Shown here: positions 1 to 30,754 of the stretch, piece after piece
How positions within the stretch are numbered: the first letter of the stretch is position 1
Layout of the letters: every line of letters starts with the position of its first letter
DNA from: a virus
Strand: one strand, 5' to 3'
DNA: 30,754 bases
Virus record (IMG/VR): IMGVR_UViG_3300037963_001337
Location: 1 to 30,754 of that record
Program-made: the position numbers and the translations under genes
The notes under the pieces: model-generated
The model's database searches: none
What the model saw: the letters and a program-made list of their open reading frames with translations, nothing else
What the model was told of the DNA's origin: nothing

Positions 1-119
1 TAAGATTCTATGTTATCCTTGTTTTTTACCCAATATCTTAATCTTCCTGCTTGGGATTGAGATATCCAATTATCCCTTTCCCAGTTTGTTATTACATTAC
101 AGTAGTCTTGTTTTCTCAT
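1..119 (-). CDS. Small protein at left edge (39 residues visible)
   Basis: A minus-strand reading frame starts at an ATG (119-117) preceded by a good Shine-Dalgarno sequence (AGAGGAG, 131-125) and stays open to the window edge. It begins MRKQDYCNVITNWERDNW and is rich in Trp, Arg and Asn; I do not recognise it. It lies 24 nt downstream of the amidoligase-like gene, so the two are probably co-transcribed. The last two bases read TA; if the window closes into a circle the next base is A, giving a TAA stop and a complete 39-residue protein. In a linear context it is simply partial. It could be a small accessory partner of the amidoligase, but nothing in the sequence proves that. Confidence 0.6.
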   Translation of the reverse strand, partial: MRKQDYCNVITNWERDNWISQSQAGRLRYWVKNKDNIES

Positions 120-143
120 TTTATTCTCCTCTGGGGGAGGGGG

Positions 144-1061
144 TCAAGCCCCCGCCTTCCCATATCTTGTTCTGATTTCGTTGACTATTCCCTCGAGGTC
201 AACTCTCTCGATGTTGTGATTCGCTAGTCTGATGCAGTCAGCTTCCCACATCTTCGCTTGTCCTAGATTCTCACTTCCGTATTCGAATACCTGCCTCCAG
301 CTCCAGTGTAGATTCTTAGGTTCGCCTTTGCTGTATCTGTTGCCTTTTGATTTCTCAACCGCTCCAGATTTTCTGACCCTCATTCTCGGTGACTCTGATG
401 TTACCTTGAAGAGTTTGGTTGTTGGTCTTGACCAGTATTCCGTAAGGTTGACCGCTAGCATGACTCTCTGAAAGAGCTTGCTTGCAACCTTTGTAGTTCC
501 GAACCATCGCCACTCGATAGTTCCAAAGTTGTTTAGCTGATTGGTAGAGAGTCCATAGAATTTCCATCCGCTGATGTGTCTGATGAAATCTTCTCTGTCT
601 ATCTCGCCTCGTTGCCACTTCTTAGCATATTCGTAAGCATGCTCCGCATTCTCTCTTCTTACTTCTTTGCAGTTAACATTGCTTTCCCATCTCGTTCTAG
701 GAATGCCTAACTGTATCACATTCTGAAATTCATAGAAACTTGTGATTAGGTTGGCTATCTGGATGGGTGTCTTGTCGACCATGTCTATATGAACATGCAT
801 CCCGCATTGCTCATCAAGTCGAGTATGCCAATCTACTTGGCTTACAAAGTCAGTCCAAAACTCTATGGATTGATTAAGCGGTAAGTAATGCCTAAGATTC
901 AATTCATAGTGATTGTGTCCATGCTCCGTTTCTAATTTTAGTTCTGGATATCGATTGTCAATGATATCCTTGAGTTGATAAAAGCCGTCTCTACTTTTGA
1001 ATTCCCATTCAATAGAAACAGGCTTTGATAATGTTGTATTGTGTTTTCTTAATGTATGCAT
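144..1061 (-). CDS. Amidoligase-like (COOH-NH2 ligase) enzyme
   Basis: The 305-residue protein shows features of the Amidoligase_2 family, which are ATP-dependent carboxylate-amine ligases with a glutamine-synthetase-like fold. I see an early acidic strand IEWEF (residues 17-21), the motif CGMHVHIDM (86-94), and LSTNQL followed by GTIEWRWFGTT (171-190), matching the family's E-x-E, H-x-H and late E-x-R metal/ATP-binding signatures. The start has a strong GGAGG ribosome-binding site (1075-1069). Family members are predicted to ligate amino acids or peptides to proteins or cell-wall components; the substrate here is unknown. The gene runs against the structural genes and its base composition looks richer in G+C than theirs, so it is probably an acquired accessory (moron) gene. 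I am fairly sure of the family and unsure of the role. Confidence 0.75.
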   Translation of the reverse strand: MHTLRKHNTTLSKPVSIEWEFKSRDGFYQLKDIIDNRYPELKLETEHGHNHYELNLRHYLPLNQSIEFWTDFVSQVDWHTRLDEQCGMHVHIDMVDKTPIQIANLITSFYEFQNVIQLGIPRTRWESNVNCKEVRRENAEHAYEYAKKWQRGEIDREDFIRHISGWKFYGLSTNQLNNFGTIEWRWFGTTKVASKLFQRVMLAVNLTEYWSRPTTKLFKVTSESPRMRVRKSGAVEKSKGNRYSKGEPKNLHWSWRQVFEYGSENLGQAKMWEADCIRLANHNIERVDLEGIVNEIRTRYGKAGA

Positions 1062-1417
1062 AATAAATGCCTCCGTGATTTAATAATAATAATGTTTTTC
1101 TTTTTTTGTCTTGGGGTAGATAATCAATAATGATGTCTTACCAAGCCGAGCCTAAGTCGCATTACATTCAATATTAATGATTCCAGTGTCTCGGTTTAAG
1201 GAAGCCTACCACTCCATCGGATTTGCCGGTATAGACTTTTGGGATTGCGGACTACTCCGTCCATTCCATGCTAATTCTATTTTTATTTCATATTCACCTC
1301 AAATTTAAAAACTTTATATATATATTATATATCTAATCTATCATAATGTATATAGGTAAATTTTACTACAATCTCGACACATAATGTGCTCCCCTATTTA
1401 TTTTTGTCCACTATAGG
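1062..1417 (-). other. 340-bp region between minus-strand genes; possible structured RNA leader
   Basis: No convincing gene is present. The part at about 1135-1275 is clearly richer in G+C than its AT-rich flanks (poly-T and TATATA tracts) and, read on the minus strand, holds several short complementary segments. CGGA-GTAG-TCCG can form a hairpin (about 1260-1249), CGG-CAAAT-CCG another, and CCGAG pairs with CTCGG (about 1196-1146) around an inner CATT/AATG hairpin. It lies directly upstream of the amidoligase-like gene, so it would be its 5' leader or a separate small RNA. I could not match it to a known riboswitch or tRNA. The distal part (1280-1417) is AT-rich and contains TATAAT-like sequence on the minus strand. 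Confidence 0.35.
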
Positions 1418-1681
1418 TTATAATTTAATAGATGAGGAAAGAATTATGGAAACAGGTATGGTTATCACACTCCCGTAGGAATCAACCTGTTTATGGTCAC
1501 CATAAGCTAAGTCTGAAGCAATCACTATTCGCTCTTTCGTTTTATGCACAAGGAATCCTATGGTGTGGCATAAAGCTGGTTCTTCTAGCTCCTTGTTGGA
1601 TAGTTCTGTCCATTCCGAGTGCGATTGTGGGTCTAGCCACCAGACTTCGATTTTGGGGAAAGGGTTCTTAGGAAACTTCAT
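1418..1681 (-). CDS. Conserved-looking small phage protein, unknown function
   Basis: The 87-residue product reads like a soluble alpha/beta protein: an early strand KIEVWWLDP, a central CHTIGFLVHKTKERIVIASDL and a final VITIPVSIILSS. I recall this strand pattern (a V-G-F-L-V segment, then IVIA, then a terminal IP-x-S-I) from small phage proteins of unknown function, but I cannot name a family. An overlapping plus-strand frame at 1432-1671 gives a low-complexity, unlikely protein, so I call the minus strand. The ATG has no Shine-Dalgarno sequence but lies 7 nt after a -10-like box with a perfect TTGACA 17 nt upstream of that box, consistent with a leaderless transcript. It is the first gene of the minus-strand cassette containing the amidoligase. 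Confidence 0.6.
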   Translation of the reverse strand: MKFPKNPFPKIEVWWLDPQSHSEWTELSNKELEEPALCHTIGFLVHKTKERIVIASDLAYGDHKQVDSYGSVITIPVSIILSSSIKL

Positions 1682-1688
1682 ATATAAA

Positions 1689-1717
1689 AAGCTAAAATAC
1701 TAATTTAATTATGTCAA
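1689..1717 (-). promoter_or_regulatory. Minus-strand promoter for the amidoligase cassette
   Basis: On the minus strand TTGACA (1717-1712) is followed after 17 nt by TAGCTT (1694-1689), a weak -10. The ATG at 1681 comes 7 nt later, so transcription would begin at or next to the start codon. The -35 is perfect and the spacing ideal; the -10 matches only three of six bases. Confidence 0.45.
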
Positions 1718-1735: not shown

Positions 1736-1765
1736 TTGCGAAAGCTTCGCTTTTACTTGTATAAT
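1736..1765 (+). promoter_or_regulatory. Promoter of the head-tail/tail operon
   Basis: TTGCGA (1736-1741), an 18-nt spacer and a perfect TATAAT (1760-1765) lie just before the ATG at 1772, 6 nt after the -10. The start would be leaderless or nearly so; no Shine-Dalgarno sequence is present. The spacer contains a perfect 5-bp inverted repeat GCGAA-AGC-TTCGC (1738-1750), which could be an operator or a remnant terminator hairpin (T-rich on its right, A-rich on its left). The region is divergent with the minus-strand promoter at 1689-1717. Confidence 0.55.
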
Positions 1766-17081: not shown

Positions 17082-17363
17082 ATGAGAAGCACAGAAACAG
17101 GGCAAATAAAGCAGGTAGCTAGAAAAGCATATATTATCATTGCTTTTATCTTGTTTGGGCTTGTATCGTGCTCTAAAGCAGTCAAATTTCAACGAGAGTT
17201 GCCAGAAATGATAAAATATAACAAAGTTGAGTTTGTTGAGTGTCCTGCCGACATATCGGGATATCTTTGCATCAAAAATACGGATGCAATCAATTCTGTG
17301 ATAGACTTAAAGAATTGCCAAGAGCAAAATAGATTCTTAAGAGAGATGTTAGATGGAGACTGA
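17082..17363 (+). CDS. Lipoprotein, candidate outer-membrane spanin
   Basis: A 93-residue protein with a basic n-region, hydrophobic span (AYIIIAFILFGLVSC) and a lipobox L-V-S-C with Cys 30. The mature part is short, has paired Cys residues (CPADISGYLC) and ends in a polar helix. Position after the single-TM coiled-coil gene fits an o-spanin. The ATG has only a weak AGGT upstream. Other lipoprotein roles remain open. Confidence 0.55.
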   Translation: MRSTETGQIKQVARKAYIIIAFILFGLVSCSKAVKFQRELPEMIKYNKVEFVECPADISGYLCIKNTDAINSVIDLKNCQEQNRFLREMLDGD

Positions 17364-17613
17364 GCTACTAGCAGTATTAAGCCAAGCACCAGCTTTAGTA
17401 ATAATTGTTTGGTTAGTTATGAAACAACAAAATGGAAATGGAAATGGTAGCACAGAACTTATAAGAACAATTGCTAGGTCATTAGAAAAAATGGCAGAAG
17501 CACAAGCAGAAGCAAATAGAATTGCAGAGAAGAGAGCAGAGGGATTTGAAAAATGGGTAGAACTCCAAAAGAGCCAATGCCAACAACAATTCGTGTCAAG
17601 AAACCAAAAATAG
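17353..17613 (+). CDS. Small membrane protein with coiled coil
   Basis: An 86-residue protein with one N-terminal span (about 5-23, LLAVLSQAPALVIIVWLVMK), a flexible Gly/Asn spacer (QNGNGNGST) and a long Ala/Glu/Arg helix (AEAQAEANRIAEKRAEGFEK). It overlaps the lipoprotein gene by 11 nt and the nuclease gene by 61 nt. Role unknown; membrane topology suggests that it belongs to the lysis/envelope group. Confidence 0.55.
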   Translation: METELLAVLSQAPALVIIVWLVMKQQNGNGNGSTELIRTIARSLEKMAEAQAEANRIAEKRAEGFEKWVELQKSQCQQQFVSRNQK

Positions 17614-17918
17614 ATTATCCAAAACTTTTAGTAGACCAAATAATGTCTACAAATTTACCTGCACCAATTCGTGAACATAGGTTTCATGAAACTCGTAAAT
17701 GGCGATTCGACTTAGCTTGGCTAAAATATAAATTAGCTGTAGAAGTCGAGGGTGGGATTTGGGTTTATGGTCGCCACAATAGAGCTGCAACTTTTTTAAA
17801 AGACATGGAAAAGTATAATAATGCTTGTTTATTAGGGTGGAGTGTGTTAAGATTGTCAACAGACATGGTTAAAAGTGGAGAAGGCTTGAAATTAATTACT
17901 ATGTTTTTTGAAGGTTGA
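17553..17918 (+). CDS. Small PD-(D/E)xK/Vsr-type nuclease-like protein
   Basis: The 121-residue product contains EHRFHETRKWRFDLAWLKYK, then LAVEVEGGIWVYGRH and DMEKYNNACLLGWSVLRLST. The F-D-x-A-W ... x-V-E-V-E-G-G ... H ... K-Y-N-x-A ... G-W-x-V-x-R arrangement is that of small phage endonucleases of the Vsr/DUF559-like superfamily; Asp and the E-x-E likely bind metal. It could act as a resolvase or nicking enzyme in DNA processing. AGAGGG (17538-17543) is 9 nt before the ATG at 17553; a shorter start at 17577 is possible. Confidence 0.65.
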   Translation: MGRTPKEPMPTTIRVKKPKIDYPKLLVDQIMSTNLPAPIREHRFHETRKWRFDLAWLKYKLAVEVEGGIWVYGRHNRAATFLKDMEKYNNACLLGWSVLRLSTDMVKSGEGLKLITMFFEG

Positions 17919-18706
17919 GAAAAAAAACTCACATAAGAACTGTCTTTATATCAGACATTCATATACCTTATGAAGACAAAAAGGCTCTTGGGATGGCTAT
18001 GGAAATTCTCAAGGACTTAGACTTAAAAGATACAGATAATATTATTATTGGTGGAGACCTGCTAGACTATTATCCGTTATCAACATTCTCACCTGACCTT
18101 ACAGCTTCTAATATAGAAATAGAATTGTTTGAAGGTGTATCTTGGTTAAACAAGCTTAGAAAGATAGCACCTAGACCTAGCATATATTTCTTTGAAGGTA
18201 ATCACGAACAAAGGATGCAAAAAAAGATTTTATCTTGTTGTGCGGCACTAGCTCCATTCTTAGCTAACAGGTTACACTTGCATGAAATCCTAGAGTTTAA
18301 AAAGTTTAAAATCAGAAATGTAAGTTCACCTTTTACACTTAACAAAAAACTTTATTATATGCATGGACATGAAAAACGAGGCTTCGCTACACCACAGCAC
18401 ATAGCAAATGTAAATTTAAAATACTACAACAGGAATGTAATCTTTGGACATCATCATAGATTTGATATGACTGTAGCAACACAGCTAGATGGCTCACTTC
18501 TTGGTGGTTGGGCTAATGGTTGTCTTGCAGATTTATCTCGTATGCCTGGTGGTTTATATTCACCATTCGACAATACACAAAGAGGACTTACAATAGTTTA
18601 TGAAAAAACTAATGGCTTTTTTAGTGTAGAACAATACATGTTCATTCCGAACAAGAAAAAAGGTTATGAATGTCTTGTTAATGGCAAAGACTATACATCT
18701 AAATAA
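17915..18706 (+). CDS. Calcineurin-like metallophosphoesterase
   Basis: A 263-residue enzyme with all the metal-binding blocks of the family: SDIH (13-16), GGDLLD (46-51), GNHE (95-98), HGHE (150-153) and GHHH (178-181). Members hydrolyse phosphate mono- or diesters. The start must be a non-ATG codon: the TTG at 17915 overlaps the previous TGA (TTGA), and the next in-frame ATG (17994) would remove the D-x-H motif. GAAGG precedes it directly, so translation is likely coupled. It ends against the convergent regulator gene with a 16-nt overlap. Substrate unknown. Confidence 0.75.
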   Translation: MRKKTHIRTVFISDIHIPYEDKKALGMAMEILKDLDLKDTDNIIIGGDLLDYYPLSTFSPDLTASNIEIELFEGVSWLNKLRKIAPRPSIYFFEGNHEQRMQKKILSCCAALAPFLANRLHLHEILEFKKFKIRNVSSPFTLNKKLYYMHGHEKRGFATPQHIANVNLKYYNRNVIFGHHHRFDMTVATQLDGSLLGGWANGCLADLSRMPGGLYSPFDNTQRGLTIVYEKTNGFFSVEQYMFIPNKKKGYECLVNGKDYTSK

Positions 18707-27913: not shown

Positions 27914-29353
27914 ATGCCAGGAATACATGGTAAAGACAAAGATAAAGAAATGGAGCATTATCCAGGTCATGAAGATGACAAAGAAATGGGTTCTATGTTA
28001 AGACCTGAAATACAAGAAAGAATGACCAAGGAAGAATTGTATGCAATGGAAGATGTGTATACAACTGCTGAAAAAGCAGAAGCTAGAGCTAAAGAAATGG
28101 GTGGAGAAGGTTCTCACACACATACTCATGTTATTGATGATGAAAAGGTAACTATGTATATGCCGTTTCCAAGTCATGATGCTTACATGGAAGCTAAGAA
28201 AAAAATGATGGAAGAAGAAGAGTATATGGATGAAGAAGAAAAAATGGCAATTACACCAAAAGATGTTCACACAAAAAAACCAATAGGTTCTTATGCACAA
28301 TCTGACTGCGATTGTGATGACAAAAAAGAAGTGTGTGATTGTAAAGAAGAACAAAAAAACAATGCAGTCGAACAAACTTTTAACCTTAATGGTGTCGAAA
28401 TATTTTCAACTGGTGTCTGGAATGGCGACAGATACAGTGAGAAGGACCTAGATGCTATGATAGAAAACTTTGATGATGTGGGCTTTGAACCACCAGTCAA
28501 ATTAGGACATAATGAGGAACAATCTGAGTTGCAAGATGGACAACCTGCTCTTGGTTATATCTCCAAAATCTATAAGGTAGGTAGTAAACTCGTTGCTGAT
28601 TTTAAAGAACTTCCAAAGAAAGTTTATGATGCAATCAAAAGAGGAAACTACAAACGAGTTTCAAGTGAAATATATTGGAACTATAAAGCCAATGGCTCAA
28701 CTTTCAATAGGGTACTAAAAGCAGTTGCTTTATTGGGAGCTGATATTCCTGCTGTTACTAATTTAGAATCAATCGAAGGATTGTATTCCAATATGGGCAC
28801 AGGAGAAGTCAAATACCACTATAACGGAAAGGAGAGTGAAATCATGGAAGAGAAACATGATGAGGTTTCAGTCAATAAGTACGAGGAAGAAATTTCACAA
28901 CTTCGCAAAGAAAAAGAAGAAGTTATGAAAGAATACCAAGCACATAAAGATGAAATCAAAAAAACCAATATCGCTTCATACATGGAAAGTTTAAAAACTG
29001 AAGGCAAAATCCTTCCTGTCCAGTATAAAGAGGTAGAGGCACTTCTTTCAACTGCAACTGAAGAAAAAGTATTTTCTTATTCAAAAGATGACAAAGAAAT
29101 TAATTTATCTCAGTTCGAACTTGTAACAAGCATCCTAGATAACATGCCAAAAGTTGTTGAGTTTGCTGAAATATCAGAAGAAGGTGGCGAACCAATAGTA
29201 GCTACTGAATATGATAATGCAGGTGTTGAAGTTGATAGAAGAGCCAAGCTTTACATCTCTAACAAAAAAGCAGAAAATTATGGCGAAGCTATAAAAGCTG
29301 TGTTAGCTGATGATGAAGAATTGGCAGAAAAATATGAACTAGAAAGGAGATAA
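27914..29353 (+). CDS. Prohead protease (Mu gpI-like) fused to scaffold
   Basis: A 479-residue protein. Residues 1-150 are a charged extension with YTTAEKAEARAKEMGGEGSH, a His-rich HTHTHV stretch and a Cys-rich CDCDDKKEVCDC. Residues about 155-300 form the protease: GVWNGDRYSEKDLDAMIENF, PVKLGHNEEQS, GYISKIYKVGSKLVADFKEL, YKRVSSEIYWNY and LLGADIPAVTNLESIEGLYS. From residue 311 a helical scaffold region follows (KYEEEISQLRKEKEEVMKEY). An internal AAGGAG and ATG suggest a separate scaffold product. Starts after a GAGGTGTAAAT ribosome-binding site. Confidence 0.8.
   Translation: MPGIHGKDKDKEMEHYPGHEDDKEMGSMLRPEIQERMTKEELYAMEDVYTTAEKAEARAKEMGGEGSHTHTHVIDDEKVTMYMPFPSHDAYMEAKKKMMEEEEYMDEEEKMAITPKDVHTKKPIGSYAQSDCDCDDKKEVCDCKEEQKNNAVEQTFNLNGVEIFSTGVWNGDRYSEKDLDAMIENFDDVGFEPPVKLGHNEEQSELQDGQPALGYISKIYKVGSKLVADFKELPKKVYDAIKRGNYKRVSSEIYWNYKANGSTFNRVLKAVALLGADIPAVTNLESIEGLYSNMGTGEVKYHYNGKESEIMEEKHDEVSVNKYEEEISQLRKEKEEVMKEYQAHKDEIKKTNIASYMESLKTEGKILPVQYKEVEALLSTATEEKVFSYSKDDKEINLSQFELVTSILDNMPKVVEFAEISEEGGEPIVATEYDNAGVEVDRRAKLYISNKKAENYGEAIKAVLADDEELAEKYELERR
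28844..29353 (+). CDS. Probable internal-start scaffold protein
   Basis: Within the protease gene an in-frame ATG (28844) is preceded by AAGGAG (28829-28834) at 9 nt. Translation from it gives a 169-residue, largely coiled-coil and acidic protein, exactly the part after the protease domain. Nested scaffold genes with their own start are well known for Mu- and lambda-type proteases, which supports this reading. It would drive prohead assembly and be degraded by the protease. Confidence 0.65.
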   Translation: MEEKHDEVSVNKYEEEISQLRKEKEEVMKEYQAHKDEIKKTNIASYMESLKTEGKILPVQYKEVEALLSTATEEKVFSYSKDDKEINLSQFELVTSILDNMPKVVEFAEISEEGGEPIVATEYDNAGVEVDRRAKLYISNKKAENYGEAIKAVLADDEELAEKYELERR

Positions 29354-29355
29354 AA

Positions 29356-29715
29356 ATGAGTACAAGACAATATTTATCAATGGTCGCAAGAGAAGATTTA
29401 TCCAATATGCAATACAAAATCGTGAATGTTCATGATGCAAACGGGATAAAATTACGAGTTGCAGCAGGAGCAGGTGTTCTTGGTGTATTAAACAACAAAC
29501 CACAATCAGGCGAACATGCAACAGTAGTTGTCGGTGGATTAACAAGATGTGTAGCTGGTGCTACTATGGCAGCAGGAAGCTGGGTTACAGTAACTGCTTC
29601 TGGTACAGGAACAGCAGCAACATCAGGAGATTATATTCTAGGTAAATCAATCACAGGTTGTGCATCTGGAAGCAACTTCCAACTGTTAGTTCAACACAAT
29701 GGTTACAGAGGTTAA
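29356..29715 (+). CDS. Capsid decoration protein (DUF2190-like)
   Basis: A 119-residue small beta protein encoded between protease/scaffold and capsid. It begins MSTRQYLSMVAREDLSNMQY and has the DUF2190-like pattern VAAGAGVLGVLNNKPQSGEH, RCVAGATMAAGSWVTV, ILGKSITGCASGSNFQLLVQ. These proteins decorate and stabilise the capsid surface. AAAGGAGATAAAA precedes the ATG. Confidence 0.75.
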   Translation: MSTRQYLSMVAREDLSNMQYKIVNVHDANGIKLRVAAGAGVLGVLNNKPQSGEHATVVVGGLTRCVAGATMAAGSWVTVTASGTGTAATSGDYILGKSITGCASGSNFQLLVQHNGYRG

Positions 29716-29736
29716 TTAATTTAAGGAGATAAAAAA

Positions 29737-30690
29737 ATGGGAATAGGACCAAGAGATGTTCACATTGATGTACCTTTAAGCAATTTAGTTGTTGGCTTTG
29801 AGCCACAAAATACAATTGTTCAAGACATATATCCAATTGTGAATGTTCAAAAACAATCAGATGTGTTCTACAAGTGGACAAAAGGAGACTTCTTTAGACT
29901 TCCTGAAACTACAATAAGAGCACCAAGAACAAAAGGTAGAACAGTTAACTACAATGTATCATCAGATACATTCTATGCTAAAAACTATGCCTTAGTAGAT
30001 GAAATAGACTACGAAACAATGGTTAATGCTGATGCACCTCTACAAATCAGAGAGAAAGCAGCTAGAAACCTACAAAACTTATTAATGTTAGACTATGAGA
30101 ACAGAGTTGCAGATCAGTTAAGAACTGGTTCAAACTTAGGTTCTAATGCAACAGTTTCCTCTAAATGGGATTCTACTGCATCTGGAACTTCTGATCCTTT
30201 TGCTGATATCCAAACAGCTAAAGATTCTATCAGAAGCACAACAGGCTTAGAAGCTAACACAATTATCTTTGGTAGAGAAGTCTACAATGCTCTTTTAAGA
30301 CATGCAGACATTCTTGAAAGAATCAAATATGTTCAAAGAGGTGTTGTAACAAAAGACCTTTTAGCTGCATTATTTGATGTCGACAAAGTGTTAATAGGTT
30401 CAGCTATTAAAAACACAGCAGAAGAAGGACAATCAGATAGCTTTAGCTCAGTATGGGGTAAAGACACTATCATTGGACACTTCACTAATGGACCAGATGC
30501 TGATGGAAGAAACCCTTCATTAGGTTATTCTTTCAGATGGACAAATCCATTATTTGGTACACCTATGGCAGTTGAATCATGGGAAGATCCAGATCATGGA
30601 AACTACATGAATATGAGAGTTCAGTATTATCAAGATGAGAAAATCGTTGCTCCTGAACTAGGATATTTATGGGAAGACTGTGTTAGTTAA
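29737..30690 (+). CDS. Major capsid protein
   Basis: A 317-residue protein, beginning MGIGPRDVHIDVPLSNLVVG, with the pattern of capsid proteins in this gene position: DIYPIVNVQKQSDVFYKWTK, YALVDEIDYETMVNADAPLQ, TGLEANTIIFGREVYNALLR and KDTIIGHFTNGPDADG. It follows terminase, portal, protease/scaffold and decoration genes, which fixes the assignment. I infer an HK97 fold, since all such phages use it. Strong TAAGGAGAT ribosome-binding site. Confidence 0.85.
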   Translation: MGIGPRDVHIDVPLSNLVVGFEPQNTIVQDIYPIVNVQKQSDVFYKWTKGDFFRLPETTIRAPRTKGRTVNYNVSSDTFYAKNYALVDEIDYETMVNADAPLQIREKAARNLQNLLMLDYENRVADQLRTGSNLGSNATVSSKWDSTASGTSDPFADIQTAKDSIRSTTGLEANTIIFGREVYNALLRHADILERIKYVQRGVVTKDLLAALFDVDKVLIGSAIKNTAEEGQSDSFSSVWGKDTIIGHFTNGPDADGRNPSLGYSFRWTNPLFGTPMAVESWEDPDHGNYMNMRVQYYQDEKIVAPELGYLWEDCVS

Positions 30691-30701
30691 ACACTAAACT
30701 A

Positions 30702-30729
30702 GGGGGAGCTTTCGCTCCCTCTTTCTTTT
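30702..30729 (+). terminator. Intrinsic terminator after the capsid gene
   Basis: GGGAGC (30704-30709), loop TTTC, GCTCCC (30714-30719), followed by TCTTTCTTTT. The stem is 6 bp and GC-rich in an AT-rich region, 14 nt after the capsid stop. If the ends are joined it would lie between the capsid operon and the convergent minus-strand cassette, and could serve both (A-rich on its left). Confidence 0.75.
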
Positions 30730-30754
30730 ATGAAAATCTTAACAATAATTCTTT

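Follow-up and report, generated by a model that had tools for sequence, protein, structure and literature searches.

We propose that an amidoligase encoded at the left end of a 30,754-base stretch of DNA from a marine-type bacteriophage (the whole stretch analyzed here, hereafter the window) on balance probably works with a second enzyme, the two forming an accessory module that rewrites or recycles gamma-glutamyl linkages. The second enzyme would be a gamma-glutamyl cyclotransferase (GGCT, AIG2-like) carried by related phages in a segment that the window contig does not include, and the distribution of the two genes makes them the best-supported candidate for a functional unit at this locus. 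Phage amidoligases are widely annotated, with a function that is treated as proposed in the literature that we searched. Joint gain and loss of the amidoligase and GGCT, without the class II glutamine amidotransferase (GATase) of larger cassettes, leaves two enzymes to consider, which can be expressed and assayed side by side.

The minus-strand block lies at the edge of an incomplete contig

The original prediction described a minus-strand block carrying an amidoligase-like enzyme. This block is indeed present at positions 1-1681, where the amidoligase, an 87-aa gene (p87), a promoter-like site and a GC-rich spacer follow one another, and the enzyme scores above the PF12224 cut-off (Table 1). 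The block had also been placed between capsid and head-tail genes, on the assumption that the window is circular. A contig 99.8% identical to the window over the shared stretch (L002) tracks it down to position 1 and then continues into different sequence, in which the left-edge ORF grows to 63 aa and is followed by an 80-aa gene. Because L002 runs past position 1 into other sequence, the window is not a circle. In addition, two contigs from one sample (L063 and L064) share a 77-bp overlap of 100% identity, which connects the capsid side with the amidoligase side. By our own count, about 8 kb separate the MCP gene from the cassette in this join, comprising a repeat-rich convergent non-coding region, a DUF7249 gene, GGCT, small genes and a ~970-aa glycosyltransferase-methyltransferase-glycosyltransferase (GT) fusion.

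In relatives, the capsid gene and the amidoligase are ~8-11 kb apart. One complete relative (38,213 bp; direct terminal repeat of 212 bp) shares the overall gene order, its MCP gene lying at 17204-18154, its amidoligase gene at 29012-30034 and gp36 at 30550. The predicted position therefore holds only loosely, in that the cassette closes an accessory interval of 8-12 kb. The window contig is incomplete and lacks the segment carrying GGCT, which was invisible to the original prediction because the contig is without that segment. A truncated contig can in this way suggest both a spurious micro-peptide and a wrong order of the genome. No tRNA was found in the window.

The interval has other features in the relatives. 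In nearly all of them, a gene that fuses glycosyltransferase 1, methyltransferase and glycosyltransferase 2 domains lies 3' of the capsid gene; it is inverted in L127-L131. Palindrome-like GTACTnTA / TAnAGTAC sites occur 15 times in ~620 bp of L048 (3744-4363), in the convergent non-coding region beside the cassette, and such an array is also present in L005, L060, L119, L058 and L061; no such site occurs in the whole window. The array is possibly a replication origin or an operator array.

Table 1. Features of the amidoligase locus. Positions are those of the window unless a relative is named.
Feature	Position	Strand	Remarks
p66, first 39 residues of a protein of 63-66 aa	3..119	-	cut by the window edge; ATG start, SD GAGGAG
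Amidoligase, GS-fold COOH-NH2 ligase, 305 aa	144..1061	-	PF12224, phrog_2443, AlphaFold model, invariant residues
Possible structured 5' leader RNA of the amidoligase	1085..1317	-	core ~1110-1275; GC-rich, compensatory changes
Promoter-like site TATACA-17-TATAAT	1352-1324	-	for the leader RNA and amidoligase
p87, 87 aa, phrog_25889	1418..1681	-	predicted small beta barrel; evolution separate from that of the amidoligase
Terminator-like hairpin	1738..1750	.	bidirectional, between the minus-strand block and gp36
Terminator-like hairpin	30701..30722	+	3' of the major capsid gene, right contig end
~970-aa glycosyltransferase fusion	L060 1354-4272; L064 3401-6319; L057 3961-6873		

The amidoligase is a divergent GS-fold enzyme with conserved residues

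The family call made in the original prediction is upheld by profile matches, fold and conserved residues. The window protein matches PF12224 with 26.3 bits (E 8e-6; curated cut-off 22) in an alignment that spans only positions 108-238 of the 245-position profile, as a divergent, single-copy member, and it matches phrog_2443 with an E value of 6e-11. Its homologues score 23.5-107 bits against PF12224. The AlphaFold model (pLDDT 82.3, pTM 0.85) has YbdK, PafA, glutamine synthetase and Dop as its best Foldseek matches. The best structural match is YbdK (Foldseek 1.1e-5; VIA Z 12.4-12.8), which superposes with an rmsd of 4.2-4.3 over 244-246 residues at 10-13% sequence identity (1r8g / 1tt4), and glutamine synthetases match at Z ~12.

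Seven residues (G87, H89, H91, R124, T181, E183 and R185) are invariant in 17 homologues that are 16-94% identical to the window protein, and E20 and E53 are nearly invariant in the same set. Loss of predicted catalytic residues in close homologues had been named as a possible refutation; the catalytic-type residues are kept down to ~16% identity. Comparison with the L003 homologue gives a dN of 0.034 and a dS of 0.41 (dN/dS ~0.08). Judged from sequence and model, the window gene encodes a predicted ligase of the glutamine-synthetase (GS) fold, is under purifying selection and has its active-site-type residues intact.

Searches among cultured phages returned 20 matches to the amidoligase, none of them from pelagiphages, and a scan of genome contigs found no relative. 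For both the amidoligase and the capsid protein (29737-30690), the best cultured-phage matches include Arthrobacter phages (Edmundo, Salgado, Kovu and others), at a distant 24-34% identity.

GGCT is the gene that tracks the amidoligase

We gathered 57 loci through the conserved neighbor gp36 and assigned families by iterated profiles. The interval from MCP or GT to gp36 is complete in 34 loci, which form 18 clusters at 95% gp36 identity. Of these 18 clusters, 7 carry both amidoligase and GGCT and the other 11 carry neither, with no discordant cluster. On the gp36 tree, each gene changes at least 7 times, always jointly in the independent pairs that we drew; when only well-supported branches are counted, 3 independent joint changes remain, a number at which a sign test has no power. 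Pfam searches of the whole records (PF06094 and PF12224) agree with this co-occurrence. The GGCT itself scores 38.8 bits against PF06094 (cut-off 22.8), and its conserved motifs FAYGMN and LDxLEGYP fit YGxN and catalytic-Glu-type motifs.

The pair is kept through three layouts. In the window type, the amidoligase is on the minus strand and GGCT on the plus strand. In L091/L061 both are on the plus strand, apart from each other. In L103 and L108 both are on the plus strand and close together, 3' of the glycosyltransferase fusion, in the order amidoligase, 81-aa ORF, GGCT; L093 and L096, loci covered only in part, belong to this layout too. The two genes are ~1-2.5 kb apart in relatives, and in most lineages they lie on opposite strands and are not co-transcribed. 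GGCT is also a common gene, found in 9 of 14 control genomes, so its role in the phage may be separate from the ligase. The original prediction had sought the partner in a tiny co-transcribed protein; the gene that tracks the amidoligase is instead GGCT, in the missing segment.

The small neighboring proteins do not follow the amidoligase

A 39-residue peptide had been counted as part of the cassette. Its ORF is open at the window edge, with no stop inside the window, and a stop after residue 39 arises only when base 1 is joined to base 30754. The peptide is thus a truncation artefact, being the start of a protein (p66) of 63 aa in L002 (4943-5134) and 66 aa in L003-L005, which is also found at full length in L080/L063, L048 and L005. 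The p66 family was found only in the window lineage and the L059/L121 lineage. In these two diverged lineages it ends in ...NNAE or ...YNGE, and it starts 24-60 nt after the amidoligase with a good SD. A match of p66 to ATP-grasp_IQCH was due to chance (E 0.16).

The size of p66, its position and SD, and its terminal Glu in two lineages recall Pup, and the best fold matches of the amidoligase model include PafA and Dop, so that the enzyme could be imagined to attach p66 to target proteins as PafA does Pup. We consider such conjugation extremely unlikely: YbdK is a closer match to the model than PafA, p66 lacks the GG motif of Pup, and the ORFs downstream of the amidoligase in other lineages are unrelated to p66 and have no terminal Glu or Gln (L057 ...RMK, L058 ...RKI, L107 ...EVN, L119 ...CHP, L103 ...RYN).

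The second small protein, p87, belongs to a family without assigned function (phrog_25889, E 3e-14). Its homologues occur in 37 phage records, 34 of them from named Pelagibacter phages. Hfq/LSm barrels resemble its model weakly, at Z 6-7, in the range common to small barrels, and no Foldseek match falls below 0.001; we therefore do not propose that p87 is an Sm-like RNA-binding protein. The co-occurrence of p87 with the amidoligase, on which the predicted cassette relied, did not bear out. The gene is present without the amidoligase in the complete intervals L087 and L088 and in the 37 phage records, the amidoligase is present without p87 in L093, L096, L103 and L108, and in L061/L091 the two are on opposite strands. 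On the gp36 tree, just two changes are placed for p87, and its presence is not tied to that of the amidoligase.

That the amidoligase works on or with p87 and the 39-mer, as products of one peptide-modifying operon, is very improbable, even though p87 adjoins it in the window lineage and several others and a short ORF lies directly 3' of it in most lineages. These short ORFs are not one family, the 39-mer is a fragment, and p87 is distributed separately. Pairing with GGCT is the reading that we retain.

In a comparison with L003 (window 1418-1700), p87 and the promoter are nearly identical, while the ligase and leader differ strongly. Since dS between the window and L003 is 0.018 for p87 and 0.41 for the ligase, the sequences suggest a recombination joint at this spot.

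The amidoligase is preceded by a possible structured leader

The promoter-like site upstream of the leader has better -35 elements in relatives, TTGCAG (L003/L018) or TTGCAC. A consensus scan alone performs near chance (6 sites found, 4.6 expected). For the RNA, we found a GC-rich leader behind this promoter-like site, with a GC content of 43% in 1110-1275 against 23% and 21% in the flanks. Between the window and L018, two helices carry compensatory changes (GGAC/GUCC to GAAC/GUUC and CUUGG/CCAAG to CUAGG/CCUAG), and a third (CCGAG/CUCGG to CUAGG/UCUAG) hinges on the placement of one gap. L059 and L079 likewise differ by GGAAAUG/CAUUUCC to GGAAAAG/CUUUUCC and GGGU/ACCC to GGGC/GCCC. Against shuffled alignments, z is -1.6 for the window type, -2.2 and -2.1 for the L057/L059 type and -2.3 for the L105 type, in sets of 2-4 sequences each, while single-sequence folding gave no excess stability over shuffles (z 0.55, 0.38, 1.28 and -1.14). 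Because the sets are this small and single folds are no better than shuffles, the signal for a conserved fold in these alignments is suggestive, not strong.

An Rfam search of the window and leader gave nothing above threshold; weak matches to SAM-II, psRNA6, PhotoRC-I, CbSR12 and speF fell far below their gathering scores and were rejected, and comparison with cultured phages returned chance-level matches only. Two short reading frames in the leaders could be due to chance: in the window (1285-1300, minus strand) and in the L060 leader, an SD-like GAGGTG/GAGGT precedes a two-codon ORF (ATG AAA TAA/TAG) where the leader begins, and the L057/L059-type leader has an ATG TAG start-stop.

In L003, L004 and L009 the leader segment is swapped for unrelated sequence while both flanks are kept. 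The spacer is the most novel element of the locus. It may conceivably hold a structured, rapidly changing cis-regulatory RNA of a new class, one that is swapped as a unit among close relatives and controls ligase expression, perhaps by sensing a metabolite of the amidoligase and GGCT, although we hold this to be unlikely.

A larger role for the RNA, as part of a ribonucleoprotein or RNA-dependent unit with the ligase, would fit the long GC-rich spacer with compensatory changes beside most minus-strand amidoligases, a spacer not evident in the complete intervals L087 and L088, which carry no amidoligase. This is very improbable, as no RNA-binding domain was detected in the ligase, L119 has just 162 nt between the two ORFs, and L061/L091, with their plus-strand amidoligase, have no such spacer between it and p87.

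A model for the amidoligase-GGCT pair

The analysis shows the family, the fold, the conserved residues, the co-occurrence with GGCT and the gene order; from these we infer the chemistry, substrate and timing of the pair, and the role of the leader, as follows. The amidoligase would have its own promoter and be transcribed behind a probably structured leader of ~150-450 nt, with one or two small downstream genes on the same transcript. It would use ATP to activate a carboxylate, most likely of the gamma-glutamyl type, and join it to an amine, while GGCT would open gamma-glutamyl amides and release 5-oxoproline. Together, the two enzymes could rewrite or recycle gamma-glutamyl linkages during infection, the most plausible substrates being peptidoglycan stem peptides or small gamma-glutamyl peptides.

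Alternatively, the amidoligase could serve in accessory metabolism, for instance as a weak glutamate-cysteine ligase of the YbdK type, and its link with GGCT could come from a shared turnover of small gamma-glutamyl metabolites rather than from the cell wall. In cells, GGCTs process small gamma-glutamyl compounds, an activity that fits such a role, as does YbdK being the best fold match. Against it stands the proposal that peptidoglycan is the target of the published phage cassettes (PMC5498523). We regard the purely metabolic role as possible but rather unlikely, and keep the two-enzyme module acting on gamma-glutamyl linkages as our preferred model.

Comparison with known systems

The Amidoligase_2 family is reported to consist of GS-like COOH-NH2 ligases (Iyer et al. 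2009). The window protein shares with it (PF12224) a score above the cut-off, the GS fold and the E/HxH/R/TxExR residues, and is divergent. Compared with YbdK, the closest fold to the model, the phage enzyme is shorter. With PafA/Pup the locus shares a GS-fold ligase and, in two lineages, a neighboring small protein ending in Glu; Pup, however, has a GG-E/Q tail, whereas p66 ends in NAE/NGE and is missing from most lineages. OM43 phages encode an amidoligase together with GATase (PMC10580990). They share with our lineage a marine phage amidoligase of PF12224, but its partner is GATase there and GGCT here.

The closest parallel is with a cassette of RIO1-like podoviruses, phiEco32, LUZ24 and tf, in which GGCT and amidoligases occur together and which is proposed to modify peptidoglycan (PMC5498523). 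The original prediction had cast the block as a peptide- or envelope-modifying module; this agrees with the roles proposed for similar phage genes in the literature, while the small-protein partner that it invoked is unsupported. The amidoligase and GGCT lie in one region in both systems (here in the relatives, outside the window). The podovirus cassette includes a GATase, which this lineage does not have: PF13522 is absent from the 9 records of the lineage that were searched, including the complete 38.2-kb relative, and was found as a positive control in the record of L010, an unrelated one with a fuller set. No ATP-grasp was noticed among the subset of interval ORFs that we inspected. The podovirus cassette is located in the replication region, whereas here the pair sits between the capsid gene and the head-tail genes, in most lineages on opposite strands, and has a long leader before the amidoligase. 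We call the pair reduced because GATase is absent from the lineage while the L010 control record is positive; by analogy, the amidoligase and GGCT look like a reduced form of the proposed podovirus peptidoglycan-modification cassette.
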